From positions 1 through 62,419 of IMG/VR virus record IMGVR_UViG_3300032285_003500: a DNA stretch of 62,419 nt; one strand, given 5' to 3'. How positions within the stretch are numbered: the stretch's first letter is position 1; every line of letters begins with the position of its first letter. Below, one piece after another: positions 1,127 to 60,347 of the stretch. The stretch is from a virus. Both the position numbers and the translations under genes were made by a program. The notes under the pieces were generated by a model. The model searched no databases, was not told the origin of the DNA, and saw only the letters and a list, made by a program, of their open reading frames with translations.

Positions 1127-2259
1127 AAATTCTTGTAAACCACAAAGACTTGAACAAGTATTTCTGGGCCACCTATCACGTCAAGAGCAAAACCAATCTC
1201 AACGACGCAGCCCACGAAATTGCTATTGGTCAGAGTATTGGAAATCCCAACAAGCGCAGCCTTTGGGAGACGGACCAAATGATTGAGGACTATGCTGCCA
1301 AGATCCTGGCCACAGAAAACCTGGATCAACAGGAAGGCTCTGTGGAGATTGGCTTCCCCTATGCTCTCATGGACTGGGATGGTGATGGAGTAAGTCAGCT
1401 GCTGTGCATCCTCATGGGAGGACAGATGGACATTGACAATATTCAAAAGTGCCAACTAAACAATCTGGAAATTCATCCTGACATTGAAAACAAGTTCTTC
1501 AAGGGCCCCAAGTATGGAATCACTGGCATCAGAGACTTTGTCAAGAATCCGGATCGCCCCTTGTTTGGAGGTATCATCAAGCCCAAGAACGGCATGACTC
1601 CTCATCAAGTGTTGGACATGACCAAGGAGTTGGTGGAGGGCGGGGTTCATTTCATCAAGGAAGATGAAATCATGAGCAACCCCAGCATCTGCCCACTCAG
1701 TGATCGTGTGCCTCTGATCAGCAAATATCTGGAAGGTAAAAATGTTGTCTACAGCTTTTGTATCAATGCTGACCCCATGCATGTTCTGGACCGTGCCCGT
1801 TTTGTAGCTGCCAACGGCGGCAACAGTGTTCACGTAAACGTGTGGAGCGGATTGGGTGTGTACAAGAGCCTACGGGATCTGGATCTGCCCTTGTTTATCC
1901 ACTATCAGAAGAGCGGTGACCGCACTTTCACCAGCAGCACACATGACTTCAACATTCACTGGGATGTGCTGTGCAAGCTGGCTGGACTGTCGGGTGTGGA
2001 CTTTATCCACGCTGGCATGTGGGGCGGTTATCTGAGCAACACTGATGAAGAACTGCACAAGACACTAGGAGTGCTGCGTTCACATAATGTGATGCCTGCA
2101 CTCAGTTGTGGCATGCACGCTGGATTGGTGCAACCCATCTATGAACGCTTTGGCAAGGACTGGATGGCCAATGTGGGCGGTGCTATTCACAGTGATCCAG
2201 GTGGCACCATGGCTGGCAGCCAGAAGATGCGCCAGGCCATTGAGGACTTGCGCATCTGA
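1123..2259 (+). CDS. RuBisCO-like protein (form IV-type)
   Basis: A 378-aa protein with the RuBisCO large-subunit fold signature. An N-terminal domain (about 1-120) is followed by a TIM-barrel part with GGIIKPKNGM (Lys153, Lys155, matching Lys175/Lys177 of plant RuBisCO) and GGVHFIKEDE (Lys179, Asp181, Glu182, matching carbamylated Lys201, Asp203, Glu204). IHY (His260, matching His294), FIHAG (His296, matching His327), Ser328 and a GG phosphate loop near 352-353 follow. The loop-6 Lys334 equivalent is Tyr303 and the Arg295 equivalent is Tyr261, so true CO2 fixation is unlikely. Known RuBisCO-like proteins act as enolases or isomerases in methionine salvage, or on apionate-type acids. The ATG at 1123 is chosen because it overlaps the cupin stop (ATGA) behind TTGGAG. 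The reaction here is unknown; the operon suggests a sugar-like substrate. Confidence 0.85.
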   Translation: MKILVNHKDLNKYFWATYHVKSKTNLNDAAHEIAIGQSIGNPNKRSLWETDQMIEDYAAKILATENLDQQEGSVEIGFPYALMDWDGDGVSQLLCILMGGQMDIDNIQKCQLNNLEIHPDIENKFFKGPKYGITGIRDFVKNPDRPLFGGIIKPKNGMTPHQVLDMTKELVEGGVHFIKEDEIMSNPSICPLSDRVPLISKYLEGKNVVYSFCINADPMHVLDRARFVAANGGNSVHVNVWSGLGVYKSLRDLDLPLFIHYQKSGDRTFTSSTHDFNIHWDVLCKLAGLSGVDFIHAGMWGGYLSNTDEELHKTLGVLRSHNVMPALSCGMHAGLVQPIYERFGKDWMANVGGAIHSDPGGTMAGSQKMRQAIEDLRI

Positions 2260-15046: not shown

Positions 15047-15132
15047 GCGAGAGTGGGGCACCAGGTCTATTTAGAACCTTGCCCGGTCAATAATCACACA
15101 CTTTATCCAAATATGTTTGCAGCAGCTATCCA

Positions 15133-15138
15133 TAAATA
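15133..15138 (+). promoter_or_regulatory. TAAATA late-promoter box for the giant fibre
   Basis: CATAAATATC, 29 nt before the ATG at 15168. No clear Shine-Dalgarno lies between box and start. Confidence 0.55.
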
Positions 15139-15167
15139 TCACAAACCGCGGACATCTGTTGAACAAT

Positions 15168-18100: not shown

Positions 18101-21100
18101 CTTTGGTGATATTGGTATTTTGGCTGACGGTATCAGTCCTTATTTGTTTGGTGGTAACATCAAAACAGGCACCGGCCGATTCAGAGTAGACAACATAACC
18201 ATCAACGGCATCAACAGCCGCCCTTATGTGGGCCTAGTAGCAACTATTGGTCCAGAATTCAGCTATGTGGAAAGCATTGAAGTTTTGGACGAAGGTCAAG
18301 GATACATCACACAACCAACTGTGGTGGTGGATCCGCCAGTGGGATATGCCTTCCGTCAAGCCACAGCTGAGGCCAATGTTTCTGCTGGAGTTATCAACAG
18401 CTTTACAATCACTGACAATGGGGCTGGCTACACAGGGCAAGCCTATGTGACTGTGTATGACGCAAGTGGTATGGCACCTCCATCCACCACAATTGTTTAT
18501 AGAGCACAAGAAATAACCATCAACAATCCAGGTGCTGGCTATGTGGTTGGTGACCAAATAACCATTGAAGGCGGAATTTATCCTACTGTGAGCGTGGACG
18601 AACCAGTTATTCTTACTGTTACAGGAATCTCTCTCACTGGCGGTGTGACAGCGGCCAATTTTTACAGCACTGGCAACTACAGCTCATTGCCAATTGTCAG
18701 CGGCGCACTCACAAGCACAAGTGGTGTGGGCAAAGGCTTCAGTTGCGGATTGAACTTTGGAATTTATCAAATACTCATGGATCCAGGAGGTGAAGGATAC
18801 ACAACCCCCATAGTCACCATCACAGGAGGTGGTGGAATCACTGCTCGTGCTGTGGCAGATTGGGACTCCAAAACTGGAACAATCAACACAGTGAGTATGA
18901 TCAACCAAGGCAACGGTTATATTTGCAAGCCTGATGTGATCATAACAGGTGGAGGCGGTGTGGGTGCCACAGCAATTTCCAATGTGGAAAACGGAACTAT
19001 CACCAGCGTGAGAGTCACCAATCCTGGTGTAAACTTTAGTAGCACACCCTCTGTATCCTTTACAGGTGGTGGTGGCAGTGGCGCACTCGCAGGAGTTATC
19101 TACTTCAAAACTGTGTATGCAACAGTCAACAACGGTGGTGTAGGATACACCGTAAACAATATTCTCACCATACTGGGTGGCACAGGTGCTCCTACTCGTT
19201 TGAGAGTCACTGCTGTGGACAATTTTGGTTCTGTAACAGAAGTGGAAATAGACAGTCAAGGTAGCTACAGCATGATGCCCAGCGTGGTGGCTGCCCCTGT
19301 GGTGGCTAGCCCCGTGGGGGGAACAGATTGCTTGATAGATCTGAGTCTGGGTCTTAATGACATAAGTTTGACCAGTGGTGGCAGCAGTTATGAAAGCGGT
19401 CCCAAGGTGAGAGTTGTGGGTGGTGGGGCAGAAAGCCGTAGCTTTACACAAGGCAAACTCTACTATGAAGGCTCTGGCACCCTATTGCCCACACAGCCCA
19501 GTATTGTTATCAGTGCCCTGGCTTATGGCAAGACATTGACACAGAGCATTGTGGCAGGAGTTCCTATTCCAACTCCGTTGTATCAGACGAATATTCCGCA
19601 AGTGTTTGATCCTGCCTTGAGTGCTGGCGGTTCATTGCTCACACAAGTGGTTCTGGGAACAAACAATTTTTGGGATATGGTCAGCAACTTTATCAGCACT
19701 TTGGCTCCCAACGGACCCAGTGAAAGTCCTTTTGATAATGCAAGCATGTTGTTGGAAATCAACAAAGCATTTTTACAATCGGAAACAGTTGCGTATGTAA
19801 ATCAAACCTATCCTGGTTTTGTTTATAATGAAGCTCTTTGCTACAGGGATGTGGGATTGATCATAGATGCAGTGAGTGTGGATGTGTTGGGTGGAGGTTA
19901 TGTGAGAAGTATCCGTGCTGGACAAGCCTACTGGAACGGTGTGGCCTCTTTGATTCCTGGAGAAACTACTCAAACATTGGCTGCACTCACCTATCTGACT
20001 GGGTTGTGTGAAGATGTGGTTGCCAACAATGCAGTGGTGCCGTTGCAGAGCATTGTTGCACAAACTATTATACCCTACTTGAGTGGTGGAACAAGAGCCC
20101 AAAGCAATATTGTAACCAGCTTTGGGATTATCAAATACATAATCAACAATGGAACAAGTCTAACAGGATTTGCCGATGCTAGCCAATTGTTGCAGGCCAA
20201 CAAGAACTTCCTGCAAGCAGAAGTGTTGGCATATGTGCTGACTCTCACCGGTCTCAATACAACTGAGTCTCAGCAGTTTGCCAACGATTTGGGTAATGTG
20301 GTGGAGGCTGTGGCTGTGGATGTGACAGCTGGTGGTGGGGTCAAAGCACAAAGCAGAGCCATGATGTATCCCAAGTATTACACTATAAGCAGTGCTACAC
20401 CACTGGTGCCCACAGGAGGAACTTTGGTTCCCAAAACAGCACTCACAGAGAGTCTCACCTATACGGAAGGACAGTCTTACTATAATGGAGCAACTTTGCT
20501 TATTCCCCCTGCACAGTTGACTCCAACTCTTAATGCAATAACTTATGCCAAGGAATGGGGTGCCAATCTTATTCAGGCTATTACCACACCACCAGTTGCT
20601 TATCCTTTGGCACCCTATCAGTTGACTGTGCCTCCTGTGACAAGTGGTAGCCTGTCTGGTGGAAGCATTGCAGAAGATTGTATGCGCACTTTGTTTGACA
20701 ATGTGAGTCGTTTCCTAAACGATGGAATTGACATGACAAATTATGCAAACGCATCAGCAATTTTGATCACTAACGAGACTGCACTAAAAGATGCTGTCAA
20801 GCTGTATGTGCAAACAACATACCCCACACTGCTCACACCCACACAGTTAAACTTGTGTGCCAGGGACGTGGGATACTTGGTGGAAGCAATAGCAGCAGAT
20901 ATCCTAAAGGGTGGAATCAGTCAAAGTTTGCAGGCTGGTAGAGCCTACTGGAGCGGGCTGAACTTGTTGATTACTACCACCCCTGTGGATACTGTGGCAC
21001 CTACACTGGATGCTATTGACTATTTGGCTGACCTGATACTGAATCCCGTCACAGGACTGCTGGTTCCTTATCTGACCCAGGTGGGTGATACTGCCACATG

Positions 21101-21716
21101 TTGCATTTTTGTAATGAAACAAATCATTGGCAATGGTCCAGCACTGGAAGGATTCAATGCTGCCAGTCAGCTGTTGCGTCTCAACAAAACTTTCCTACAA
21201 GCTGAGGTTTTGGCCTATGTTATCACAACCAATCCAGGACTGCTGACGCCTGTTCAACAAGCACTGTTCAGTAAAAATTTGGGTAATATTGTGGATGCAG
21301 TGGCAGGAGACTTGGTGGGTGCAGGATTGAGTCCTGTGGGTTATACAGTGGATAATGAAACCACTGTTGTGTTTGAAGAAGCAACCGATTATGCTCCACT
21401 AGACAACGAAATTGTCAACTTCTATCAAGTGAGTGTGGCAAGTGCAAGTGGACATACATTTGAATATGTGGGAGCAGGCACAGATATCAACACCTGCCTG
21501 CCACAACTGGGTGGGGTGCCGGTGCAGGCTAACGAAGTTGTCATGCGCAAGGGCGGTAGGGTCTACTACACTAGCACAGATCACAAAGGTGACTTCCGTA
21601 TTGGTGAAGGATTGGTTATCAACCAGAACACTGGCACACTCAGCGGACGTGTTTTTGCCAAGAGTTTGTTTGGTATTATCACTCCATTCGTGCTCAGCAT
21701 CGAGAATGCAGGATAA
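15168..21716 (+). CDS. Giant tail-fibre/adhesin with collagen-like and beta-helix parts
   Basis: A 2182-aa structural protein. It begins with a docking segment ([20 protein letters not shown]) shared with the genes at 33273 and 35240, then QRPSSSP...GMIRYNTD, a typical phage fibre element. A short Gly-X-Y stretch lies at about nt 15583-15870. The middle has many repeats of type NPGxGY...P.VTITGGGG, a right-handed beta-helix ([24 protein letters not shown], about nt 17490-18250), more GxGY repeats, then four or so helical units ([37 protein letters not shown]). The end, [18 protein letters not shown], is typical of large T4-like marine phage fibres. The ATG at 15168 is chosen because the late box lies upstream and the docking motif starts there. 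Confidence 0.85.
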
Positions 21717-22126: not shown

Positions 22127-26137
<4,011 letters not shown>

Positions 26138-33263: not shown

Positions 33264-35234
<1,971 letters not shown>

Positions 35235-39559: not shown

Positions 39560-42160
39560 ATGGACACTGGTAAACTTACCATTCGCGGCACAATAGACGC
39601 AAGCAATAACACTGCCAGCTTTGTTCTGCCCAAAGGCACGACTGCCCAACGCCCCTCCAGCCCCACTGGCGGCATGATGCGTTACAACACAGATATAAAT
39701 CAAATCGAAACATGGGATGGAAGCATTTGGGTGCGAGTGGGCGGCACTGGCACAACTGGTACAACTGGCTCAGGAGCCACAGGAGCCACAGGAGCCACAG
39801 GCTCCACAGGAGCTCCAGGATCTGCTTCCAACACCGGAGCAACTGGTGCCAGTGGAATAGGCCCCACAGGAGCTACAGGAGCCACAGGAGTCCCTGGATC
39901 TGCTTCCAACACTGGGGCAACTGGGGCTACAGGTCCTGTGGGCTGGACGGGTCCCACAGGCGTGGCTGGGGCTGCGGCCAATACTGGTGCAACTGGCTCA
40001 ACTGGAACAACTGGAGGCAGTGGTGCCACAGGAGCCACAGGGGCCAAAGGAGATTCTGGCTCTGCAGGAGTGCCAGGGCCCTCTGGAGTTACGGGCGCCT
40101 CAGGTTCACAAGGTCCATCAGGACCAACTGGAGTGCAGGGCCAAACTGGAGCCACAGGCAACCAGGGGTTGACAGGAGCCACTGGTAGAACAGGCGCCAC
40201 AGGTGCAACTGGCACAAACGGCACTGGGGTTACTGGAGCAACAGGCGCCCCTGGAACAGCCGCCAACACTGGTGCAACTGGGGTCACTGGCCCCACAGGG
40301 GGTGGAGGTGCAAGCCTGCCTATCAGCAGTGCTGATGTGACCTTCTTGCAGGCGGGCACTAGTGCAGTTTCACGCACTGGTCAGTCCAAGTATCGCGATG
40401 TGGTGTCAGTATTGGATTTTGGTGCAGTGGGTGATGGCACAACTGATGACACAACTGCCATACAGAATGCACTGAATACGAAAAAGAATGTTTACCTGCC
40501 ACCTGGAAGATATTTGGTCACATCCGGACTTGCCATGACTTCTAACGGTCAAAGGATGTATGGGGAAAGTGGTTTTGGTCCATTTGCCCTTACTGAGGTG
40601 TCGGCAGCAACAACCGCCTGCACTTTTATTGAATGGGGAGCTCCCAATGACGGTGCGGAAAGAAATGTTATCACCATTGATGAACTAGCACATTGCATAA
40701 TTGAATCCCTTGTTATTCGAAGAAGTCCTGCCCAATTTTCAAATCAGCTTACAAATGGCCACGCTGTGGTGTTTAAGAACTCATACTGTTCCGAAGTGAG
40801 AACATGCAGAATCACAGGCACGGGCAACGGCATTTCCATGTGGGGCACAGGCAATCAGGTGATCGATTGTGAACTGAGGGCGTTTTACGGAAGTTATGGG
40901 GTAAGATATTTTGGCACCGCAGCCAAACCCAGCCTTCGCGGTGTGCTTCAACGAGTTGTTTCAGATCAAGTAGATGCATTTGCTTACGGAGTTCCCACTT
41001 CTTTCACTCATGTGGAATATGACAGTTATGCTCACAGTCTGATCATTGAGGCATGTGCTCTGCTCCAAGGCAACACCGCAATTTATATGCATGATAGCAT
41101 AGGCCTAGCAGACTCCTGGCCCACGTGGATACATGCTTTTGACGTAGAGTGTGATCATCAATATGGCACAGGAATAATTTTAAGTGGAGGGGAAGGTTGT
41201 TTTATTACCACAAGTTGGATTGGCTCCACTTACTTGGGCAATGGCATTGTCACACAAGGAAATTGGCGCGGTGAACTACTGGTCACCAATAGCCGCATTT
41301 TGGGCAATGCCCAGTATGGCATTTTGTTGAATGCTGGCGTTGATGCATGCATAAACAACAATATTATCAGCGCCAACTCCCAACACACCGCAGGTTGTGC
41401 AAATGTGGGAGTGGGAGTCAATGTGAGCAAATTTGCTATCACAGGTAATAAGATTGGTGGCGACATCGTTGGCAACGTGGGTCCACAAACTTATGGTATA
41501 TACATTGTGGGTGGCACAACTGATTATTATCAAATAGTGGGTAATGTTATTGTTGGTAGCACCACTGCCATCTCGGATGGCGCTACTAGTGCCACCAACA
41601 AGATTGTTCAAGACTTTACTGTAAACGGCGGCGGCCTAAAAATGACCGGCAACCTGATTGCTGCCAGTCTTGTTCCACTGGCTGACAATACCTACGATCT
41701 TGGCGGACTGCCTGGATCTCGTTGGGCAAACGTTTATGCTGCCAACGGCACCATCAACACAAGTGACGCATCTTTAAAAACCAACATTTCTCCACTGCCC
41801 ACAGTATTGACAATTATTGAGGACATTGATCCCGTAACCTTCAAGTGGATTTCAGGTGGACTTGTGCAAGAAAAGAGAGTCACCCGGAAACAATTTCCTG
41901 TGCTGGGTGGTGAAGGATTTGTGGAACAAGATGTGGAGGAAACAGTTTATGTGGATAGACCGGGCAAGCGCACCCATTGGGGCTTCCTGGCATCTGATGT
42001 GAAGGCTGCCTTTGACAAAACTGGCATGGACTTTGGTGGTTATGTAAAAGATGAACAGGGCACTGAGCATCTGAGACCAGACCAGTTGATCCCCGTTCTG
42101 TGGAAAGCTGTGCAGGAATTGAAGGCAGAAATAGATATCCTCAAAGCTTCCAAATCGTAA
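39560..42160 (+). CDS. Tailspike-like fibre: collagen, pectate-lyase-fold, S74 chaperone
   Basis: An 866-aa protein. Residues 1-60 are a head-binding segment with [16 protein letters not shown]. Residues of about 60-250 are Gly-X-Y repeats. Then [22 protein letters not shown] and [10 protein letters not shown] begin a Pectate_lyase_3 right-handed beta-helix (about 285-690), the fold of phage depolymerases. The end is a Peptidase_S74 autocleaving chaperone: SDASLKTNI with the Ser and Lys, then [13 protein letters not shown], and a terminal coiled coil ([15 protein letters not shown]). A polysaccharide-degrading or receptor-binding role is inferred from the fold; catalytic residues were not identified. 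Confidence 0.85.
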
Positions 42161-51102: not shown

Positions 51103-51130
51103 AAAAGGGCGGTAGAGATACCGCCCTTTT
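51103..51130. terminator. Strong bidirectional intrinsic terminator
   Basis: AAAAGGGCGGTA (51103-51114), GAGA, TACCGCCCTTTT (51119-51130), followed by CTTTT. A-rich and U-rich flanks on both sides make it work for the SpeD-like gene (+) and the leucine-rich-repeat operon (-). Confidence 0.85.
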
Positions 51131-51137
51131 CTTTTGA

Positions 51138-51413
51138 CTAGATTTCCTGGATTGACAGCACCAGATCATCACATCCACGGATAATGCGATGATATACTCC
51201 TGCTGGCACACACCAGCTATCGCCGGGCTGGATCATCTGGGGCATTTGGTTGTCCAACTGGAACTGCCAGCCGTCCCCTTGCACTACGGTGATCTTTCTT
51301 GTAGCATAGTCCCTGTGCCACACCAGTTCAGATTCCTGCACATCTAATGGGAAAGTGCGCTCAAATGACTTGGGGGCAGTGGGGTGATCCTGGTAGGGAA
51401 CAACCTCTACCAT
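51138..51413 (-). CDS. Small cupin, last gene of the repeat-protein operon
   Basis: A 91-aa protein with a cupin-like beta barrel: ELVWHRDYATRKITVVQGDGWQF, then MIQPGDSWCVPAGVYHRII, the second cupin motif (PGD...P...H). The first motif has only one His (WHRD). It starts MVEVVP inside the end of the last repeat gene with the same ATGGTAG overlap used through the array, so it inherited that junction. Function unknown. Confidence 0.65.
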   Translation of the reverse strand: MVEVVPYQDHPTAPKSFERTFPLDVQESELVWHRDYATRKITVVQGDGWQFQLDNQMPQMIQPGDSWCVPAGVYHRIIRGCDDLVLSIQEI

Positions 51414-52024
51414 TCTGCATTTCCTTCAAATCCAGCTTCATTTAGTTCGCTGGCACACTTGAGTATGTCACCTGGGTTGGTGGTGCCCTCATACTTCCTT
51501 AATATGATTAGGCATTGGGTTTGTAGTTGATAGCTATATTCATTGTTCACAAACATGTGTATGGTTTTTATAGGCAGCAGGCTCAACATGGCCAAGTGGG
51601 GGCTCCAAGTCACTCCCACCTTTTCTAAATTATCCGGCAAACCTTTTAAACTTTGCAATGGATTGTCCTGCACCCACAGTTGTTGCGCCTGGGGAGCATA
51701 CTCCAGTGATGTGAGTTTACAGCCCCTGGCATAAACTTCCGCTTTGACCACAGCCGGTCCACCAGCAAAGGTGGTGATGGGATTGCTCCTGCACACAAAC
51801 ATACCGCCCACTGTGCGTGGGCACCCTTTCAAAGTCTTGAGGCCTGAGTTGAGTAGGTTGAAGTCTTGGGTGACTGTGCCAAATTGCACAGGAAGTCGAG
51901 CCTTCTTGTGCATGAGTGTCACATTGCCATTCACATTCACCACGCCTGTGTCCTCTATATCAAAATCGCCTTCAATATAAAAATCCTTTTTGAGTGCTGT
52001 TTTGATCATATCTTTGTCTACCAT
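51407..52024 (-). CDS. Leucine-rich-repeat paralogue 9
   Basis: A 205-aa protein with four degenerate repeats (TLKGCPRTVGG, TFAGGPAVVKA, SLEYAPQAQQ, SLKGLPDNLEK). The C-cap has GTTNPGDILKC instead of NPADILRC. The most divergent member; it ends at the cupin gene. Confidence 0.75.
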   Translation of the reverse strand: MVDKDMIKTALKKDFYIEGDFDIEDTGVVNVNGNVTLMHKKARLPVQFGTVTQDFNLLNSGLKTLKGCPRTVGGMFVCRSNPITTFAGGPAVVKAEVYARGCKLTSLEYAPQAQQLWVQDNPLQSLKGLPDNLEKVGVTWSPHLAMLSLLPIKTIHMFVNNEYSYQLQTQCLIILRKYEGTTNPGDILKCASELNEAGFEGNAEW

Positions 52025-52590
52025 TCTGCATTCCCCTCAAATCCCGCTTCATTCAGTTCACTGGCGCAACGTAGTATGTCACCTGGGTTGTTGGTGCCCA
52101 TATATGGCTGCATGATTTTCCAAGCCTTTTCTCCAGCAAAAGTGCCACCATATTTTACTGGATAAGCGAACTTGACGTTTTTGTAGGTTAGTAATCTCAA
52201 CATGGGCAGATGGGGATTCCACATGAGGAAATAAAAACTAGCACCCTGGGGCAGATGTTCCAGTGATTTGAGCTCCGGTGACCTGACTCCAAAAGTTCCC
52301 CGCACAGTGTGGGGAGCACCTTCCAAGCTTTCCAATATTTCGGCTTTGACCAAAAAATCTCCGCCCACATACTGGGGACTACCCACCAAGCTGGTGAGTG
52401 TGGGTTGCTTGCCCAAGTGAAATCCGCGACTGACTTCCAGGAAGGACACTGGCAGCCGGCTAAAGATGTTGATAGCCTCAGCCATGCCCTTGACACTCAC
52501 CAGTCCCTGGTCATTTATTGTGACCTGCTCCATGGTGAGTGTGACGAAATTGGCTTTGAGAGCTGCAAAAATCTTTTCTTTGTCTACCAT
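52018..52590 (-). CDS. Leucine-rich-repeat paralogue 8
   Basis: A 190-aa protein, the shortest member, with three repeats (SLVGSPQYVGG, SLEGAPHTVRG, SLEHLPQGAS). The N-cap is unusual (TLTMEQVTINDQGLVSVKG). The last repeat lacks the Cys. Confidence 0.75.
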   Translation of the reverse strand: MVDKEKIFAALKANFVTLTMEQVTINDQGLVSVKGMAEAINIFSRLPVSFLEVSRGFHLGKQPTLTSLVGSPQYVGGDFLVKAEILESLEGAPHTVRGTFGVRSPELKSLEHLPQGASFYFLMWNPHLPMLRLLTYKNVKFAYPVKYGGTFAGEKAWKIMQPYMGTNNPGDILRCASELNEAGFEGNAEW

Positions 52591-53210
52591 TCTGCATTCC
52601 CTTCCAATCCGTGTTCGTTGAGCTCACTGGCACATCTTAGTATGTCAGCTGGATTGGTTGTGCCTGCATACTTTTCCAGAATACGCTTGCAATCCCTAAT
52701 CTTCTCCATGGGCTGGGAGGACATGGGGTATGCACTGAGTATGTCAATTTCCTGTGCTGTAAGAGTGCGCAGCAAAGGCAAATGTGGATCATAACTCACA
52801 GTCACCAGCTGCAAGCGTTTGGGAAGTCCTTCCAGGCTGGTCAAGGGATTATTAGCTAGGTATAGGTGCTTGGTTTTGGGGCACCCCTTCAAGTTGGTTA
52901 TTTGGCTGTGGTTGATCATGACTAGACCGCCCACTCGTTGGGGAGCCCCAGTCAAATCTTTGATAGGGTTGTGCGTGCTGGTGAATGCGTTGCCCACATA
53001 TGTGGGGCACCCTTCCAGTGTGGTCAACAAGCCAGTTTCCAGTTTAAAATTGTTGCTCACTCTGCCAAATTTCACAGGCAACTCTGTTATACCGGAAGTG
53101 AGCTCAATGCTGCCTTCACAGCTGACAACACCATCATCATCCACCCTGAGCTCACCAGCATACCAAAACCAACGGCGCACTTCCAGGAGGATTTTCATTT
53201 TGTCTACCAT
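52584..53210 (-). CDS. Leucine-rich-repeat paralogue 7
   Basis: A 208-aa protein with four repeats. TLEGCPTYVGNAF, NPIKDLTGAPQRVG, ITNLKGCPKTKHLYL and NNPLTSLEGLP are nearly the same as in paralogue 1, six genes away, so the two form a subfamily. The C-cap has ELNEHGLEGNAEW. Confidence 0.8.
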   Translation of the reverse strand: MVDKMKILLEVRRWFWYAGELRVDDDGVVSCEGSIELTSGITELPVKFGRVSNNFKLETGLLTTLEGCPTYVGNAFTSTHNPIKDLTGAPQRVGGLVMINHSQITNLKGCPKTKHLYLANNPLTSLEGLPKRLQLVTVSYDPHLPLLRTLTAQEIDILSAYPMSSQPMEKIRDCKRILEKYAGTTNPADILRCASELNEHGLEGNAEW

Positions 53211-53959
53211 TCTGCATTTCCTTCAAATCCTGCTTCGTTTAGTTCACTGGCACAACGAAGTATGTCAGCTGGATTTTGTGTGCCCTTGTATTTGTTGAGT
53301 ATTGTCCATACCGGTTTGGGAGCAGCCATCATGTCCAATTTTTTAGCCTGCAAGGTAATCAGTCGCAATAAAGGCAAATCCTTTTTATAATCGCACTCAA
53401 ATAAATGTCCCACCCTTTCTGGTGCGCCCTCAAAACTTTTAAGTGGGTTGAGCCGACAGTTGTATCTGTCCATGACCTGAGCAGGACCTCCCTCCAAACT
53501 GGTGAGCTTATTACTAGCACAAATGAAGCTGCCTCCCACCCACCTGGGAGCACCTTGCAAGCTTGTTAACTGATTATTGTCGCAGGCAAACCAGTCACCC
53601 ACTTTTTCAGGAGCGCCCTTCAAGCTGGTGAGCTGGTTGGCCATACAGCTGAATCCCCCATGCACTACACGGGGCGCACCCACAAGATCCTTGAGCAGGT
53701 TACCAAAGCAAAAAAAGTCACCATGTATGGTGTGAGGTGAACCTTTGAGACTGGTCACACCTTTTTCGTAACAGGCAAAATCGCCCTGGACTGTGCCAAA
53801 CTGCACATGGAATTGGCCTTGGCTGGCTTCCGCCCCCTTGAATGTCACATTACCCACCACATCCACTTCCCCGTTTTGGGGATTCACCTCAAAGGTGCCC
53901 TTGTTGCTGATTTTAAAATGCTTTCTTACCAATCTGCTGATTTGTTTTACATCTACCAT
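53204..53959 (-). CDS. Leucine-rich-repeat paralogue 6
   Basis: A 251-aa protein, the longest, with six repeats, several keeping the full FxCxxNxLTSLxGAP pattern. The N-cap is extended by about 20 residues (STFEVNPQNGEVDVVGNVTFKG-like region, residues 18-45). Confidence 0.8.
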   Translation of the reverse strand: MVDVKQISRLVRKHFKISNKGTFEVNPQNGEVDVVGNVTFKGAEASQGQFHVQFGTVQGDFACYEKGVTSLKGSPHTIHGDFFCFGNLLKDLVGAPRVVHGGFSCMANQLTSLKGAPEKVGDWFACDNNQLTSLQGAPRWVGGSFICASNKLTSLEGGPAQVMDRYNCRLNPLKSFEGAPERVGHLFECDYKKDLPLLRLITLQAKKLDMMAAPKPVWTILNKYKGTQNPADILRCASELNEAGFEGNAEW

Positions 53960-54570
53960 TCTGCATTTCCTTCAAATCCTGCTTCGTTTAGATCGCTGGC
54001 ACACTTGAGTATGTCAGCTGGATTTTTGGTTCCTGCATATTTTCTGATTATATCAGTGACCGAGTCAGGTGCATGTCCAATCCAGGGATGCGGATAAGTG
54101 ATCAATCTTAGCACAGGTAGCTGTGGATTCCAAGTACACCAAAATTCATCCCCCACATGCTCAGGAGCACCCCCCAAGCTGGTGAGCGGGTTATACTCGC
54201 AGTCAAACGTGTCTCCCACATGCTTGGGTGCCCCCATCAAACTGGTGAGTTTATTATGATGACAAATAAAGTCACCACCCACGTGCTGGGGAGCTCCCTC
54301 CAAGCTGGTGAGTTCACTGTTTGAGCAGATGAAATATCCTTTCACATGATGCGGTGCGCCCACCAGGCTGGTGAGAGATGAAAAAATACACCTGAAATTG
54401 CCAGATACAGTGCCAAAAGATACTGGTAGTTGTTTCACGTCGGTGTCCATTAACTGCACATCACCATGCACATTTACCTTGCCATCTGATCCAATATTGA
54501 CTTCACGATCAGGCCCACTTGTGTTGAAATATTTCCAAAACACCTTTTTGATTTGTTTTGTATCTACCAT
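53953..54570 (-). CDS. Leucine-rich-repeat paralogue 5
   Basis: A 205-aa protein with four consensus-like repeats. The last repeat and C-cap (HVGDEFWCTWNPQLPVLRLI, then PHPWIGHAP) closely match paralogue 3, two genes away. Confidence 0.8.
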   Translation of the reverse strand: MVDTKQIKKVFWKYFNTSGPDREVNIGSDGKVNVHGDVQLMDTDVKQLPVSFGTVSGNFRCIFSSLTSLVGAPHHVKGYFICSNSELTSLEGAPQHVGGDFICHHNKLTSLMGAPKHVGDTFDCEYNPLTSLGGAPEHVGDEFWCTWNPQLPVLRLITYPHPWIGHAPDSVTDIIRKYAGTKNPADILKCASDLNEAGFEGNAEW

Positions 54571-55244
54571 TCTGCATTCCCCTCAAATCCTGCTTCGTTT
54601 AGTTCACTTGCACAACGCAGTATGTCAGCTGGATTTTTGGTGCCTGCATACTTGTTTATTATGTAGTTTACCTTATATCCTCCACCCAAAAGTTGCACAT
54701 GGGGATACATGATGGTTCTCAACAACGGTAAATGTGGGTAGTATGTGCATATGAATTCCTGACCCACTTGCTCAGGTGCCCCTTCCAAACTGGTGAGATT
54801 TGGGCAATTCCTCCAGGAAAAAATCCCTCCCACATAAGTGGGGGAACCCTCCAAGCTGGTGAGTAATTCACCTCCGTCACCACCACCATAAAAACTGCCA
54901 CCCACATGAGCAGGAGCACCCAGCAAGCTCTCAAGTTTATTACCGCCGCATGAAAAATTATCACCCACATAATCAGGGGCGCCTTGCAAAGTGGTTAGTG
55001 CGTTTAACCAACAGGTAAAGCCTCCTCCCACACGACGGGGCGACCCTATCAAGGTGGTCAAAGATCTCTCATGGCACGAAAAAGCATCTGACACATCACC
55101 AAATTGCACAGGTAACTGTTTGACCTTCTTCTTTAGGAAGACTTGCCCCTTAACATCCACCACGCCATCAGGGTGTATGATCACATCACCCAGTATAGTA
55201 AAGTACTTCTGTAGTCTGGCCTTGATTTCTTCCACATCTACCAT
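54564..55244 (-). CDS. Leucine-rich-repeat paralogue 4
   Basis: A 226-aa protein with five repeats. One is expanded by a GGGDGGEL insert (SFYGGGDGGELLTSLEG), which would make a Gly-rich bulge on the solenoid. The C-cap has PHVQLLGGGYKV. Confidence 0.8.
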   Translation of the reverse strand: MVDVEEIKARLQKYFTILGDVIIHPDGVVDVKGQVFLKKKVKQLPVQFGDVSDAFSCHERSLTTLIGSPRRVGGGFTCWLNALTTLQGAPDYVGDNFSCGGNKLESLLGAPAHVGGSFYGGGDGGELLTSLEGSPTYVGGIFSWRNCPNLTSLEGAPEQVGQEFICTYYPHLPLLRTIMYPHVQLLGGGYKVNYIINKYAGTKNPADILRCASELNEAGFEGNAEW

Positions 55245-55906
55245 TGTGCATTTCCTTCAAATCCAGCTTCGTTTAGTTCACTGGCGCAACGTAAAATATC
55301 AGCTGGATTTTTGGTGCCTTCATATTTGCTGATTATATCAGACACTGAGCCAGGTGCATCTCTAATCCAGAGATCCTGATAAGTGATCAATCTTAGCACA
55401 GGTAGCTGTGGATTCCAAGTACACCAAAATTCATCCCCCACATACTCAGGTGCACCCTGCAAGCTGGTGAGGTTATTGTGTTGGCAAATAAAATCAGCCC
55501 CCACATGACGAGGTGCGCCTTGCAAGCTGGTGAGCAAATTATTGCCGCAATTAAAATCACCCTCCACATGATCTGGTGCGCCCTTCAAACTGGTGAGCTT
55601 ATTGTTGTAGCAATAAAAACTACCCTCCACGTGAACAGGTGCGCCCTGCAAACTGGTGAGCTTATTTGCGTAGCACTGAAAACTACCCTCCACGTGAACA
55701 GGTGCACCCTGCAAACTGGTGAGCAAATTATGGCTGCAATTAAAATGACCCTCCACATGACCAAATTGCACTGGTAACTGTTTAATCTGACGCTTTAATT
55801 CCACGTCACCTTGCACATCCACCACACCATCAGGGCGTCTGGTCACCTGCCCGCTGATTTTGAAGTATTGCTTGAGTACCTTTTTTATTTGGTTAGCATC
55901 TACCAT
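55238..55906 (-). CDS. Leucine-rich-repeat paralogue 3
   Basis: A 222-aa protein with five near-perfect repeats. Two adjacent ones (QGAPVHVEGSFQCYANKLTS and QGAPVHVEGSFYCYNNKLTS) are encoded by 60-bp units that differ at only a few bases (about 55609-55728), so the duplication is recent. Ends GNAQW. Confidence 0.85.
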   Translation of the reverse strand: MVDANQIKKVLKQYFKISGQVTRRPDGVVDVQGDVELKRQIKQLPVQFGHVEGHFNCSHNLLTSLQGAPVHVEGSFQCYANKLTSLQGAPVHVEGSFYCYNNKLTSLKGAPDHVEGDFNCGNNLLTSLQGAPRHVGADFICQHNNLTSLQGAPEYVGDEFWCTWNPQLPVLRLITYQDLWIRDAPGSVSDIISKYEGTKNPADILRCASELNEAGFEGNAQW

Positions 55907-56601
55907 TGTGCATTCCCCTCAAATCCAGCTTCATTCAGTTCACTGGCACAACGTAAAATATCACCTGGATTTTTGGTGCCCACATAGGGTGCGAATATTT
56001 TTCCGAACTTGCGTATAGTAATAATGGACACAGACGGCCCACCCTTGGCCACACCCATCACAGTCACTCTCCTAGCTTGCAAGGCGGGCAAAAATCCCAA
56101 TTGGGGATCATAGGATAGTTGTATCCAATCAATGTTCTCTGGTATATCTGCCAGACTCTCCAAGGGATTTTCATATACTGTCAATTGAACGTTGTCAGGA
56201 CAATGCTTCAAGTTCTTGAGTTGACAGTCTCTGGCCACCAGTTTACTGCCGATTTGAACACTCACATGTTCCAAACTTGTGATGGGATTTTTATAGCAAA
56301 TATAGTCCTTGCCCACTTGACGCGGCCCTCCTGCCAGTGATGTGACACCACTCCAGCTACAGTCAAATTCACCACCCACAATTTCAGGACAACCTTCCAG
56401 GCTGGATAATTTTGTGGCAATCCTAAAGTCACCTTTCACATGTTTGAATTTTATGGGCAATTGGGGTTCACTACCCCAATACTCCAGGTTACCATCATAG
56501 CTGACCACACCCTGGCTATCAATGCTATAGTCAGCGTTGGGTGTTCTGAATCCTGAGAATTCTTTGTACAACGTCTGCAGAATACGATCTTTGTCTACCA
56601 T
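55900..56601 (-). CDS. Leucine-rich-repeat paralogue 2
   Basis: A 233-aa protein with five repeats, several without Cys (SLEHVSVQIGS, NLKHCPDNVQ, SLADIPENID). The N-cap differs (KEFSGFRTPNADYSIDSQG). Ends GNAQW. Confidence 0.75.
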   Translation of the reverse strand: MVDKDRILQTLYKEFSGFRTPNADYSIDSQGVVSYDGNLEYWGSEPQLPIKFKHVKGDFRIATKLSSLEGCPEIVGGEFDCSWSGVTSLAGGPRQVGKDYICYKNPITSLEHVSVQIGSKLVARDCQLKNLKHCPDNVQLTVYENPLESLADIPENIDWIQLSYDPQLGFLPALQARRVTVMGVAKGGPSVSIITIRKFGKIFAPYVGTKNPGDILRCASELNEAGFEGNAQW

Positions 56602-57224
56602 TCTGCGTTTCCTTCAAATCCGTGTTCGTTTAGTTCACTGGCGCAACGTAGTATGTCAGCTGCATTTCCTGTGCCACAATATTTGTTGAGAATCGCTTCA
56701 CATAATTTGGTCTCTTCGTTTCGAGTGTACTTCCCTGGAGTGGAAACATAATACAGAGTAATTTTTTTTGCAACCAGTGCTCGTAGAAGGGGTAGATGAG
56801 CATCGTAAGTTACCAATAGACTTTCCAGGCGTGGAGGAATACCTTCCAGGCTGGTCAAGGGATTATTGACTAGGTTTAGGTACTTGGGTTTGGGGCACCC
56901 CTTCAAGTTGGTTATTTGGCTATTGAACATGACTATACTGCCCACTTGTTGGGGAGCACCAGTCCAATCTTTGATAGGATTGTTAATGCAAATAAACTGG
57001 TTGCCCACATATGTGGGGCACCCCTCCAGGGTTTTGAGTTGATTACTCTCCAGACGAAAGTTCTCGTCTACTCTTTTAAACTGCAAGGGCAATTTGCTCA
57101 TCCTGCTGGTCATCTGCACACTGCCTGCGCAACTGATCAAACCATCACTGTCCACAGTTACAGACCCATTATAGGCAAAATGGCGTCCCAAGTCGCGTAT
57201 TATTTGTTTGCTGTCTACCACCAT
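56595..57224 (-). CDS. Leucine-rich-repeat paralogue 1
   Basis: A 209-aa protein with four repeats, closest to paralogue 7. It begins MVVDSKQI, with one extra Val, and overlaps the upstream gene by 10 nt (ATGGTGGTAG) instead of 7. First member of the array. Confidence 0.8.
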   Translation of the reverse strand: MVVDSKQIIRDLGRHFAYNGSVTVDSDGLISCAGSVQMTSRMSKLPLQFKRVDENFRLESNQLKTLEGCPTYVGNQFICINNPIKDWTGAPQQVGSIVMFNSQITNLKGCPKPKYLNLVNNPLTSLEGIPPRLESLLVTYDAHLPLLRALVAKKITLYYVSTPGKYTRNEETKLCEAILNKYCGTGNAADILRCASELNEHGFEGNAEW

Positions 57225-57784
57225 TTACCACCACCACTTAGTCCGAGACTTTTACTGTACCTGGGAAGTCTGCACGACCAGTATCTGGCACTCATGCGGT
57301 CATTGGCTTGTTCACAGCGATGACGTGCCGCAAAATTGGCACGGGCTTGTGGATCAGCCAGTTTAACTTTCAAACGTCCAGTGGCATCACCAAAGCTGAT
57401 TTTTTTGACCTTGTCAGTGCTGGGGTTCTTCACATAAACATAAAACTTTTTACTGCCACCACGATGAACTTTGCCCAACTGCACTTTCTTGCCCTTGTAT
57501 TCGGCTTCCAACAGGGCCTCATGCATGTGCTCAGTGAGTGGCACATCCAAGGGCACACGAACACCCTCATAAATGGCCCAAGTGCCTATGTCTGTAAGCA
57601 GCAGTTCCTGATCATCCTCGTGAAACTGGATGCCTTCTGCCATCATGGTTCGTGCATGTTCAAAAAACTGGCACCAGCTGTCGCTCAACATACGGAACAT
57701 GTTATCTTCCAGGGGGATTTCACAGCAGACGTGGTTTTCCAGTAGTGTCTTGTAATCTGTTTGTGTAAGTTCGTGTATCTTCAT
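57215..57784 (-). CDS. Phage protein with basic Cys-containing C-terminal domain
   Basis: A 189-aa protein. It begins MKIHELTQTDYKTLLENH. The C-terminal part (GGSKKFYVYVKNPSTDKVKKISFGD, then ARANFAARHRCEQ and ARYWSCRLP) matches a small basic domain recalled from many marine phage virion proteins (DUF5872-like). It ends GGGKWW; the WW codons with the stop form the overlap used by the first repeat gene. The N-terminus may be a capsid-targeting sequence (LLE|N). First gene of the repeat operon, with a late box 7 nt before its ATG. Confidence 0.65.
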   Translation of the reverse strand: MKIHELTQTDYKTLLENHVCCEIPLEDNMFRMLSDSWCQFFEHARTMMAEGIQFHEDDQELLLTDIGTWAIYEGVRVPLDVPLTEHMHEALLEAEYKGKKVQLGKVHRGGSKKFYVYVKNPSTDKVKKISFGDATGRLKVKLADPQARANFAARHRCEQANDRMSARYWSCRLPRYSKSLGLSGGGKWW

Positions 57785-57791
57785 GGTGTGT

Positions 57792-57797
57792 TATTTA
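57792..57797 (-). promoter_or_regulatory. TAAATA box 7 nt before a start codon
   Basis: Minus strand TTTAAATAAC, 7 nt before the ATG at 57784, no Shine-Dalgarno. Back-to-back with the plus-strand box at 57815 in a 41-nt intergenic gap. Confidence 0.45.
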
Positions 57798-57814
57798 AAC
57801 ACAAACAGGATTGG

Positions 57815-57825: not shown

Positions 57826-58452
57826 ATGAAGATAGTTGATTTACTCTTACAAGAGTCTCGCTCCACTCCCGTGATCTGTGTGGATGTGCAGCCTGAATAT
57901 AGTGGCATCATGGATGGGGATGAAAGTCCTGTGTTTGAACAGATCATACAATTTGTGAATAACCAAACTGGTCCTGTGCTCATGTTTGTGAACGCCGAAG
58001 ATCAGGGTTTGAGCGGTGATACTGTGGCATCTGTGAAAGAGTATTGGCAAGATAGTGGCTTTGATCCAGATAATTGGCGCAGAGTTACCGTTGTGGACAA
58101 GGGATATGGATACTTGAGAGCCTGGATGGATCAGGGCATTGATGCTAGAGCAATCATTCGCACCATACGTGAGATGTACAAGCAAAAAGTGGATGATAGT
58201 AGACTACTTTTTGATGGTGAAGATTCTGACACCTATCAGGGTGACATGCAAAATCTGTTGGGTGTAGACTATGATGATGTTGTGTTATCAGATCCGTTGA
58301 TTACCCAATGGACCAGCATTGCTCAGCTCAAACGTTTTAGTGGCGCTTACATTGTGGGTGGTGGAAGAGACGAATGCTTGAGAGAGGTGGAACTGCTCAT
58401 GAATGCCTTCAACATAAAATACAAAAGAATTGACAGTTTGGTGTACGGATGA
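57826..58452 (+). CDS. Isochorismatase-like hydrolase
   Basis: A 208-aa protein with an isochorismatase/cysteine-hydrolase fold: VICVDVQPEYS near 15-25 (Asp at the first strand), VLMFVNAEDQG, and AYIVGGGRDECLREVELLM near 175-193 with the Cys that would be the nucleophile. Family members hydrolyse isochorismate, nicotinamide or carbamate-type bonds; the substrate is unknown. The N-terminus MKIVDLLLQES looks like a T4-style capsid-targeting sequence with cleavage site LQE|S, so it may be a packaged protein. Overlaps the next gene by 4 nt. Confidence 0.65.
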   Translation: MKIVDLLLQESRSTPVICVDVQPEYSGIMDGDESPVFEQIIQFVNNQTGPVLMFVNAEDQGLSGDTVASVKEYWQDSGFDPDNWRRVTVVDKGYGYLRAWMDQGIDARAIIRTIREMYKQKVDDSRLLFDGEDSDTYQGDMQNLLGVDYDDVVLSDPLITQWTSIAQLKRFSGAYIVGGGRDECLREVELLMNAFNIKYKRIDSLVYG

Positions 58453-60347
58453 AGATACAAGATTTGCTCAACAAGCCCACCATGACTGTGGGTCAGCTCA
58501 GTAAAAAATATCACACAGCTCCCAGCGCAGTGGAAACTGAACTCAGCAAGGGTGTGAAAGTGGAAATGGAGCACACCAATAATATTCAAGTGGCTCGTGA
58601 GATAGCCTTGGATCATTTGGGTGAAGATCTCTACTATTATGACAAGTTGAGCAAGATAGAAAAGCCACTGGCAGAAGCCTTGGACCAATATTCCCCAGTG
58701 GAGGATCCCACACCCAGTGAACTCAAGCTGCTGGCTCGCCGCAACAAATATCATAGTGCTAGATTTGTTGTTTACAAGCCTGACCGTGAAGGTACCACCC
58801 ACTGGATAGCTGCTGATAGTGAACACTTCACACACCACAGCATGGCACCAGCCATGGGAGCTTGGTTGATCAGAGGATATGTGCAATACCTGGGTGATAA
58901 TGAGTACGCCTATCGCAGCATGGAAGTTTACAGCCCCAAAACAGTGGATCATCCCCTGTTCAGAACCTGGGAGCGGGCAGGAATTCAAAATGGCAACCCT
59001 GAAGTTGTAGAATCATATTCCTCTCACCTGAAGGAAAGCGCCATTGATTTGAGCCAGGGTGGTAGAGCTGTCAAGGACCTTAGAGTGGAAGGCGTGGTCA
59101 AGATGGCTCGCAAACAACCAGTGCGAGGGCTAGTGTTTGGCAGACACATTTATTGGTGGCCAGCTTCAAATGCCACTCATGGTGAAGTGGCAGCACAGTT
59201 GGGGTTCACAGATTATGTGGACTACAGACTCATGCTCAGCAAAGAGAACGATGAGTTAAGACTTAGAGGTGATCCTGTGGAGATCCAACAATGGATGCAT
59301 CATGTCAAAGCGTGTCCCCAGCTGAACAAGCTCACCCAATCAGATCAATTATACTTCCATGCAGGCAGCCATGGGTGGGTCACAGGTGCTGAATTTATTC
59401 AGATCGTATCTGATGAACCAGTTTCAGAAGCTTGGAGCAAGAAATACAAAAAGAGCATCAACTGTGCCAACCCCAAAGGATTCAGCCAACGTGCTCACTG
59501 TGCAGGCAGGAAAGCCAGATCAGCACACAGAAAAACTAAATCCACAAGTGTGAGTGAGGCTACCACCAGAACCAGCAAACAAGGCGCACCAGGCACTCTC
59601 AAAGCCAAGATATCAGGCAAAGTCACATGTGACAAAGTGCAAAAACTCAAACACAGAAGAAATGCCACCCCACATGATGTGAGTCAAGCCAACTGGTTTA
59701 TAAACATGCATAATTGTGAAGAATCTGTGCGCTTGAGTGAAATTTTCCAGGAGCCTGCGCAACCGGCAGACTGGAAAAAATTCCAGCACGGCAAATACAC
59801 TTCCTGGGAAACAGAGTTTTATCTACTCAACAAATTGATAAAAGTTGAAGTTCATGGTGATTACAACCAGACTGGCGCACTATTTGTCACACGCAATACA
59901 GATTTGGATTTGCCCAAGACTTATCAAGGATATCAAGTCATATTCAGAGTGGCTGGCAGCACAGAAGTCACCGGCGAAATGGGTGCATCCGCTGCCAAGG
60001 TATTCGAAGATGTGGTGAGCGTGTTCCGAGGGTTTTTTGACACGCATGACTGGGACTATATTCTGTTCACAGGTCAAGAAGGCAGCAGAGATAGTTTATA
60101 CGACAGGATAGCTCAACGGTTGGCCCGTCAAGTGGGTGCCAAAGTGGCCACCTACAGAAGTGAGTTTCTCATATACAAACCTGGTGACGGATTAGCCGAA
60201 CAGGGAGGAGTGGGACTTGTGGTGCCGGGTGTGAACATGCCAGCCGGCATGCATCCAGATGAGATTCGCCGTCAGGCCCGAAAGTTTGGTTTTAAAACAA
60301 CCAAAGATGGTGTACCTCCTGTGACAAGAACTGACGGAAAATATTGA
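58449..60347 (+). CDS. Large phage protein, possible packaged fusion
   Basis: A 632-aa protein. It begins MKIQDLLNKPTMTVGQLSKKY, similar to its two neighbours. Residues of about 80-190 have YHSARFVVYKPD and APAMGAWLIRGYVQYLG. Near 338-365 is the Cys-containing basic motif KKYKKSINCANPKGFSQR followed by AHCAGRK, recalled from many marine phage proteins. Near 430, RLSEIFQEPAQPADWKKF looks like a second targeting-type N-terminus inside the chain, followed by a C-terminal alpha/beta domain (about 440-610, FTGQEGSRDSLYDRIAQRLAR). This suggests a fusion of two virion proteins. No enzyme motif recognised. Confidence 0.6.
   Translation: MKIQDLLNKPTMTVGQLSKKYHTAPSAVETELSKGVKVEMEHTNNIQVAREIALDHLGEDLYYYDKLSKIEKPLAEALDQYSPVEDPTPSELKLLARRNKYHSARFVVYKPDREGTTHWIAADSEHFTHHSMAPAMGAWLIRGYVQYLGDNEYAYRSMEVYSPKTVDHPLFRTWERAGIQNGNPEVVESYSSHLKESAIDLSQGGRAVKDLRVEGVVKMARKQPVRGLVFGRHIYWWPASNATHGEVAAQLGFTDYVDYRLMLSKENDELRLRGDPVEIQQWMHHVKACPQLNKLTQSDQLYFHAGSHGWVTGAEFIQIVSDEPVSEAWSKKYKKSINCANPKGFSQRAHCAGRKARSAHRKTKSTSVSEATTRTSKQGAPGTLKAKISGKVTCDKVQKLKHRRNATPHDVSQANWFINMHNCEESVRLSEIFQEPAQPADWKKFQHGKYTSWETEFYLLNKLIKVEVHGDYNQTGALFVTRNTDLDLPKTYQGYQVIFRVAGSTEVTGEMGASAAKVFEDVVSVFRGFFDTHDWDYILFTGQEGSRDSLYDRIAQRLARQVGAKVATYRSEFLIYKPGDGLAEQGGVGLVVPGVNMPAGMHPDEIRRQARKFGFKTTKDGVPPVTRTDGKY

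Follow-up and report, generated by a model that had tools for sequence, protein, structure and literature searches.

Nine tandem genes for predicted leucine-rich-repeat proteins in a phage genome, a candidate repertoire of binding proteins

Why would a virus of bacteria carry, side by side, nine related genes for small leucine-rich-repeat (LRR) proteins? The genes lie in a stretch of 62,419 nucleotides (IMG/VR record IMGVR_UViG_3300032285_003500), analysed at its full length and called the window below. An earlier note, made from the sequence alone, had described nine intact paralogues with conserved N- and C-caps and three to six repeats differing in surface residues, and had proposed that they form a modular, diversifying recognition array. 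First, we checked whether this observation is real, and it was confirmed, with one correction concerning the caps. Nine consecutive, uninterrupted minus-strand ORFs, named g1 to g9 in order of transcription, lie exactly at 51407-57224. They encode proteins of 190-251 aa with three (g8) to six (g6) repeats, counted by eye, most of them of 21 aa and some of 19-24, and all neighbours overlap by 7 nt. Judged from sequence, they form one operon with an upstream phrog_7595 gene and a downstream cupin gene. The features of the locus are given below, where G004, G005, G006 and L234 are our handles for phages carrying comparable arrays.

57792..57799, minus strand: TTTAAATA, one mismatch from the T4 late promoter core, with TAAATA kept at the same spacing in the related phage G006; weak evidence
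57215..57784, minus strand: first gene of the operon, 189 aa, phrog_7595 family (unknown function), its end overlapping the start of g1 by 10 nt; relatives in Methylophilales, Pelagibacter and Flavobacterium phages, and the same gene upstream of the array in G006
56595..57224, minus strand: g1, LRR protein, 209 aa, 4 repeats
56835..57011, minus strand: solenoid segment of g1, up to 92% DNA identity to g7, with the N-cap at about 0.55 and the downstream segment at about 0.45; recombination tract
55900..56601, minus strand: g2, LRR protein, 233 aa, about 5 repeats
55238..55906, minus strand: g3, LRR protein, 222 aa, 5 canonical 21-aa repeats
55379..55444, minus strand: 66-nt stretch of g3 identical to g5 (about 54094-54159), inside a 95-97% identical segment with flanks mostly at about 0.5-0.7; recombination tract (coordinates within a codon or so)
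54564..55244, minus strand: g4, LRR protein, 226 aa, 5 repeats; body 81% identical to a gene of phage G004, tail 42%
53953..54570, minus strand: g5, LRR protein, 205 aa, 4 repeats
53204..53959, minus strand: g6, LRR protein, 251 aa, 6 repeats; body 76% identical to a gene of phage G006, tail 39%
52584..53210, minus strand: g7, LRR protein, 208 aa, 4 repeats
52018..52590, minus strand: g8, LRR protein, 190 aa, 3 repeats
51407..52024, minus strand: g9, LRR protein, 205 aa, 4 repeats
51138..51413, minus strand: cupin-like gene, 91 aa, last gene of the operon, starting in the same 7-nt overlap as the LRR genes (Cupin_2 E 7e-4, below the curated cut-off); same gene at the end of the array in G005, G006 and L234
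51103..51130, no strand assigned: 12-pair GC-rich stem-loop with T/A flanks between convergent genes, likely a two-way terminator of the operon, from a consensus match only

To determine which parts of the proteins are conserved, we aligned the nine sequences. The alignment has 41 invariant columns, many of them in the last 33 aa. Median pairwise identity is 0.35 in the N-cap, 0.37 in the LRR, 0.30 in the segment before the tail and 0.79 in the 33-aa tail, indicating that the claim of conserved N- and C-caps holds only for the C-tail, the N-cap varying as much as the solenoid. The C-tail occurs in these nine ORFs and in no other six-frame ORF of the window. At the DNA level, a repeat search found nine copies of a 131-nt junction unit and 18 copies of a 46-nt repeat unit. 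Synonymous sites between paralogues are near saturation (pS about 0.75-0.8 in N-cap and LRR) while frames stay open and core positions conserved, so this is selection, and both chance and recent duplication were rejected.

We then asked whether the proteins are LRR proteins. As expected of LRR proteins, which have tandem repeats of about 20-29 residues with a hydrophobic/Asn framework and one main strand per turn, they have tandem repeats mostly of 21 aa, with one main strand per turn in the g1 model, where the main strand of a canonical repeat is positions 14-18, whereas strands are short in the g3 model. AlphaFold2 gave confident LRR-like solenoids for both (g1, pLDDT 95.2, pTM 0.90; g3, pLDDT 96.3, pTM 0.90), in which the last 33 aa form a short helical tail. 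The best PDB sequence matches are LRR proteins. In profile searches LRR_4 stayed below its cut-off and no Pfam LRR or FNIP family reached its own. A Foldseek search of the PDB with the g1 model gave no hit at E 1e-3 or better (best E 0.12, several top hits being LRR proteins), and the best hit in BFVD, at E 7e-6, was to an unnamed viral protein. Pfam, PHROGs and PADLOC gave no function for the proteins tested. By eye, no signal peptide or membrane segment was seen. No diversity-generating retroelement (a reverse transcriptase with template/variable repeat) was noticed in passing among the window proteins scanned, the contig being a fragment.

The note had named evenly spread variation and single-copy homologues in all relatives as outcomes that would contradict its reading, and neither was found. 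Repeat positions 14, 16 and 18, alternate residues of the modelled strand that would lie on the concave face in a standard LRR, are the most variable in the window and in G001, a large phage of IMG/VR, and they dominate, together with position 19 or without it, in the window and in nearly all other arrays tested. Concave pN exceeds the pN of other exposed positions in 21 of 21 arrays tested. In G001, pN/pS at these positions is 1.36-1.44, against about 0.5 for other exposed positions and below 0.1 for the core. However, exposed positions of any solenoid can drift under weak constraint, and the window and its relatives are near synonymous saturation, so ratios of 0.9-1.0 do not prove positive selection. 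Between orthologues the concave face is under mild purifying selection (pN/pS 0.48, from small counts). Positive selection on the face is thus suggestive in G001 but was not confirmed between orthologues, and divergence appears after duplication and by recombination rather than by continuous fast point change.

To study how the array changes, we compared it with those of other phages. Searches with the C-tail in IMG/VR and INPHARED found nothing, and a clamp-loader search for close phage relatives found none; the relatives surfaced only through repeat-pattern scans because their tails differ. At the syntenic locus G006 has five genes instead of nine and L234 has a replaced cassette. G004 has an array of nine genes. 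Paralogues within the window show recombination tracts, between g3 and g5 and between g1 and g7. Tail identity is 0.79 within the window and 0.41 to relatives, although the g4 and g6 bodies match relatives at 0.81 and 0.76, and the DNA identity of g4 and its G004 partner falls from 0.83-0.97 to 0.52 at the tail, so the tail is genome-specific and bodies are exchanged. We considered that the tail merely carries the translation signal of the next gene. This is partly true, since its last seven residues also encode a Shine-Dalgarno-like stretch and the next start codon, which explains part of the tail conservation. However, the tail is found only on LRR proteins, differs between genomes over most of its length and is also carried by the lone LRR gene of G004, so gene-overlap signals alone do not explain it. 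Finally, tandem capped-LRR arrays are not unique to this phage and its relatives but recur in many large environmental phages (51 clusters of two or more genes).

Taken together, the interpretation given in the note is partly supported: a modular, diversifying set of solenoids is supported, a conserved N-cap is not, and the decoys, inhibitors of host defence or surface binders that it suggested remain conjectures. Its statement that no described phage system is built this way agrees with our literature search, in the limited collection of papers searched. Our preferred explanation, held tentatively and at somewhat less than even odds, is that one operon makes nine small LRR-like proteins, that each concave face (positions 14, 16, 18 and probably 19) binds a different protein in the infected cell, most likely host proteins and plausibly defence components, and that the common helical tail docks all nine onto one common partner or location. 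In this view, the set changes by gene gain and loss, repeat-number change, recombination between paralogues and exchange of bodies between phages, while the tail stays genome-specific. The analysis establishes the anatomy, the tight gene overlaps, the modelled fold, the concentration of variation, the recombination, the turnover of copy number and cassettes and the discordance of tail and body, whereas expression, translational coupling, binding, one common tail partner, intracellular action, host targets and any anti-defence function are inferred.

Other explanations could be proposed, each of which seems to us less likely. An unlikely one is that the LRR proteins are loaded into the capsid and ejected with the DNA, like T4 IPI or Alt, to act at the start of infection, the C-tail replacing here the N-terminal capsid-targeting leader of other lineages. 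Indeed, LRR arrays of many other large phages begin with a short leader of the form MK..(I/L)..(F/Y)..(F/N)xE, resembling T4 capsid-targeting sequences and found in 111/217 LRR proteins, 126/949 other ORFs and 5% in internal controls (8/9, 7/79 and about 1% or less in G001 by a stricter pattern), and 13 of 22 arrays of three or more genes have it in most members. T4 internal proteins carry 10-19-residue N-terminal leaders and are otherwise diverse, and IPI inhibits a restriction enzyme (PMC3012670; PMC9026906). The TAAATA late-promoter-like element kept upstream of the operon would fit as well, but it lies too close to the start codon for an ordinary untranslated leader. Against this, the window proteins and their close relatives lack the leader: none of the three window N-termini tested fits the pattern, and all nine begin MVD or MVVD. 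Moreover, the leader is a loose pattern, and none of the other bearers tested had a head-protein annotation. It is also unlikely, slightly more so, that these are virion surface or appendage proteins that bind cell-surface structures and tune host range. Two LRR clusters of G001 lie beside genes that look, by eye, like tail-fibre and baseplate genes, an LRR-like protein lies in the tail module of a Vibrio mediterranei phage and is its most diverse protein (PMC10945359), and internalin-J is the best PDB sequence match. However, the window array is several kb from the collagen-like fibre genes and lies among DNA-metabolism and unknown genes, no signal, trimerisation or virion-anchoring domain was found, and nine co-made different adhesins are unusual.

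The proteins could also be adaptors or scaffolds, each binding a different phage protein and bringing it to a place set by the tail, without any arms race. The constraint on orthologues agrees with this, and tail and partner would co-evolve within each phage, but gene number and cassettes change between close relatives, which is unexpected for fixed assembly roles, and we consider it unlikely. Neutral or selfish tandem duplication, with expansion by slippage and unequal crossing over and no function for the diversity, is very unlikely. Although 63-nt repeat units and junction repeats make duplication and loss easy, all nine frames are open at saturated synonymous divergence, core pN/pS is about 0.1 in G001 and among orthologues, variation is concentrated on one face in 21 of 21 arrays and the tail is conserved also in a lone copy.

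A broader hypothesis, unlikely on present evidence though not excluded, is that tandem capped-LRR arrays are a general, undescribed class of phage recognition repertoire. Bodies with diversified concave faces would be shuffled as cassettes within and between phages, while a genome-specific tag, a tail here and a capsid-targeting-like leader in many other lineages, would send all of them to one place, in many cases into the capsid for injection, where they would bind and neutralise host defence proteins. Many phage genes in large genomes have no known role. If these arrays are binding repertoires, they are the phage counterpart of LRR receptor families, made for offence, and give a ready set of candidate inhibitors for finding unknown bacterial defence proteins. 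The tail/body discordance predicts one common partner for all nine tails, and the leader of other lineages predicts LRR proteins inside heads.

LRRs in viruses have been catalogued (Matsushima et al. 2021, cited in PMC10945359). Among the systems compared, the closest are LRR-solenoid genes of large phages (G001 and G003 of IMG/VR, the 735-kb phage LR756501 and Vibrio phage VB_VaC_SRILMA), which have the same 21-aa LTSLxGxPxxVGGxFxCxxNx repeat. G001 and LR756501 also share the N-cap motif DG.(I/V)DV.G.V or a variant of it and have tandem copies. Their C-terminal caps differ, many have an MK..F..E leader, and we found no functional description of them. The T4 internal proteins (IPI, IPII, IPIII, Alt) are likewise a diverse set sharing a short targeting tag, one of them being an inhibitor of a host restriction enzyme, but their folds are unrelated and their tag is N-terminal. 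Bacterial LRR effectors and surface proteins (SspH/IpaH, internalin J) give the best PDB sequence matches, at E 4e-7 to 8e-7 and confined to the repeats. The window proteins have no catalytic NEL ubiquitin-ligase domain, the last 33 aa being a short helical tail, and their N-termini, MVDxxxI, show no signal sequence by inspection and no wall-anchor domain was found, so that neither the IpaH/SspH nor the internalin architecture applies. The LRR multigene families of giant viruses and Dictyostelium (FNIP/FGxxFN proteins, PMC9525666) include virus-encoded families proposed to recognise many ligands, but their repeat motif is different (FGxxFN, PF05725, without a match here at E 10 or better), their hosts are eukaryotic and some are fused to F-box or kinase domains. 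The FGxxFN LRRs have themselves been compared with the variable lymphocyte receptors of jawless fish (PMC9525666). In these receptors, LRR modules vary on the concave strand as in the window array, but they are assembled somatically, whereas here the variants are germline paralogues and phage-phage recombinants.

The clamp loader encoded on this 62,419-bp fragment of a phage record from IMG/VR is closest, at 47.6% identity, to those of PA5oct-like jumbo phages. The array and its immediate neighbours comprise the following features:

57215-57784: phrog_7595 gene, upstream of the array
51407-57224, minus strand: nine ORFs (g1 to g9, in order of transcription), which fill this interval without a gap
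51138-51413: cupin-like gene
51103-51130: 12-pair stem-loop following the cupin-like gene

Each of the nine ORFs overlaps the next by seven nucleotides, ATGGTAG, which encode the end of one protein (Glu/Gln-Trp-stop) and the start of the next (Met-Val-Asp). The preceding codons read GAAGGAAAT or a purine-rich variant and look like a Shine-Dalgarno sequence. The same overlap joins g9 to the cupin-like gene, and a ten-nucleotide version joins the phrog_7595 gene to g1. From this arrangement we infer one operon of eleven genes with coupled translation.

The nine proteins have 190-251 residues and contain 3-6 repeats, mostly of 21 residues (LTSLxGAPxxVGGxFxCxxNx), with an N-terminal helix and strands and a helical C-terminus. 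AlphaFold2 models of g1 and g3 are confident (pLDDT 95.2 and 96.3, pTM 0.90). In the g1 model, the main strand of a canonical repeat covers positions 14-18, so that positions 14, 16 and 18 should point to the concave side if the geometry is that of a standard LRR. The best PDB sequence matches are the repeats of internalin J and SspH/IpaH, but no solved fold matches at E 1e-3, so the predicted solenoid is LRR-like with unusual geometry. A block of unnamed viral proteins in BFVD (A0A8D4GM21, A0A8D4GLZ7, A0A8D4GM51, A0A8D4GP65) is structurally similar to the g1 model (E 7e-6 to 5e-4) and could be another multigene LRR family. Searches of Pfam and PADLOC gave no function, and PHROGs gave only families of unknown function.

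To determine which parts of the proteins are conserved, we compared the nine paralogues segment by segment. Median pairwise identity is 0.35 for the N-cap, 0.37 for the solenoid, 0.30 for the segment before the tail and 0.79 for the last 33 residues. The earlier note had proposed that the paralogues share both N- and C-caps; the conserved N-cap is therefore not confirmed. Within the repeats, the most variable positions are 14, 16 and 18 (3.5-3.75 bits), and the same three lead in the arrays of another phage, G001 (195 kb). In G001, where divergence is lower, pN/pS at these positions is 1.36-1.44, against about 0.5 at other exposed positions and below 0.1 at core positions. Across 21 arrays, not all of which are independent, the presumed concave positions change more than other exposed positions in all 21, and six exceed a ratio of 1, although saturation limits the strength of these ratios. 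The paralogues also show traces of recombination. g3 and g5 share 66 identical nucleotides inside a 95-97% identical segment with flanks mostly near 0.5-0.7, and g1 and g7 share a solenoid segment at up to 0.92 identity with flanks near 0.55 and 0.45. Synonymous distances change abruptly at these places.

Pattern scans for the repeat peptide, with one follow-up search, brought in three syntenic relatives and one relative with a large array. The first, G006 (3300032279_000064, locus L233), has the complete locus, with the phrog_7595 gene, five LRR genes and the cupin gene, so that gene number at the syntenic locus is nine here and five in G006. G005 (3300032301_000398) has the same cassettes but ends within the array. 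L234 (3300009154_003182) has an orthologue of one cassette at over 90% identity and of a second that is mosaic, but the cassette next to the cupin gene is another one (47% identical) and the cupin gene differs too. The relative with the large array, G004 (3300010885_013533), has nine tandem genes and one lone copy elsewhere. MoxR-like ATPase, VWA and DUF2201-like genes lie directly upstream of its nine-gene array (locus L236:11420-16000), an arrangement reminiscent of vWA-MoxR conflict systems. Nonsynonymous change between orthologues is constrained, with pN/pS of 0.48 at concave positions, where the sample is small, 0.37 in the caps, 0.32 at other exposed positions and 0.08 in the core. Together with the paralogue data, this suggests that each copy, once diverged, keeps its face.

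We next compared the C-terminal tails. Tails in the window read GTKNPADILRCASELNEAGFEGNAEW, while those in the relatives read GQGKPGAIKAAAELIRAGYKDNARW. Tail identity averages 0.79 within the window, 0.67 within G004, 0.64 between G004 and the other relatives, and 0.41 between the window and all of them. Yet g4 is 81% identical in its body to a G004 gene with tails only 42% identical, and g6 is 76% identical in its body to a G006 gene with tails 39% identical. For g4, the DNA identity is 0.83-0.97 up to about codon 185 and then falls to 0.52. The simplest reading is that bodies move between phages and receive, or are made to match, the resident tail. The tail is found on no other protein in the window or in the related records searched, and the lone G004 copy carries it, so it has a protein-level role beyond holding the start signals of the next gene. 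We infer a common partner or destination.

Taken together, the array described in the earlier note is real. The note's reading of it as a diversifying binding repertoire is partly supported, and the array is best explained as a phage-encoded repertoire of binding proteins with a shared tail. The gene layout, the distribution of variation, the recombination tracts and the discordance between tails and bodies are shown, whereas the coupled translation, the binding itself, the common partner and any anti-defence role are inferences.

Other genes and elements of the window are the following:

1144-2259, plus strand: RuBisCO-like large-subunit protein (PF00016, E 1e-32; best PDB match 2cwx, ribulose bisphosphate carboxylase, E 2e-34), predicted from sequence alone, with the KxDE metal motif present by eye
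15117-21716, 22139-26137, 33273-35234 and 39560-42160, plus strand: several very long proteins with collagen-like (GxT/GPT) stretches, probably tail fibres
58449-60347, plus strand: DUF5661 protein, whose counterpart in G006 also carries a deaminase domain
14194 (minus), 26673 (minus), 27573 (plus) and 42865 (plus): four exact TATAAATA sites, against 0.6 expected

Near-matches or matches to the latter lie upstream of 13 of 55 genes, against a 4% background, indicating that T4-type late promoters are likely.

To examine whether such arrays are more widespread, we counted the clusters in the loci found by the repeat scans. There are at least 138 distinct clusters of such genes, at least 51 with two or more genes, 26 with three or more and 10 with five or more, up to nine; these are lower bounds, since the scan was conditioned on one exact peptide and sees fragments. 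Examples are loci L104 (319-kb contig, nine genes), L184 (eight), L179 (seven) and L174 (597-kb contig), and the 735-kb phage LR756501 has several tandem copies. G001 alone has at least four separate clusters of LRR paralogues (loci L013, L016, L018 and L019), two of them beside tail or baseplate-like genes. Gene spacing within an array is often nearly constant (-4, -7, +10 or +14-19 nt). Homologous capped-LRR genes also lie in Flavobacterium chromosomes, as a tandem group beside a recombinase-like gene and as a single gene near brxL of a BREX system (L021:6423-9908; L022:7935-8606).

Many arrays (L104, L059, L126, L137, L140, L153 and others) have members that begin with a shared leader, MK..(I/L)..(F/Y)..xE, resembling the T4 capsid-targeting sequence. 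Such a leader was found in 51% of LRR proteins, 13% of other ORFs and 5% of internal controls, although none of the other bearers tested had a head annotation. The window lineage lacks the leader. T4 internal proteins are a diverse set sharing only a targeting leader, and one of them, IPI, inhibits a restriction enzyme (PMC3012670, PMC9026906).

Two jumbo-phage reviews contain no mention of LRR, but we claim no priority in view of the survey of LRRs in dsDNA viruses by Matsushima et al. Single LRR proteins have been reported in phages, namely a BspA-like protein in vB_VhaM_pir03 and a highly variable LRR protein of the tail module in a Vibrio mediterranei phage, and viral LRR families are known from giant viruses (PMC9525666).
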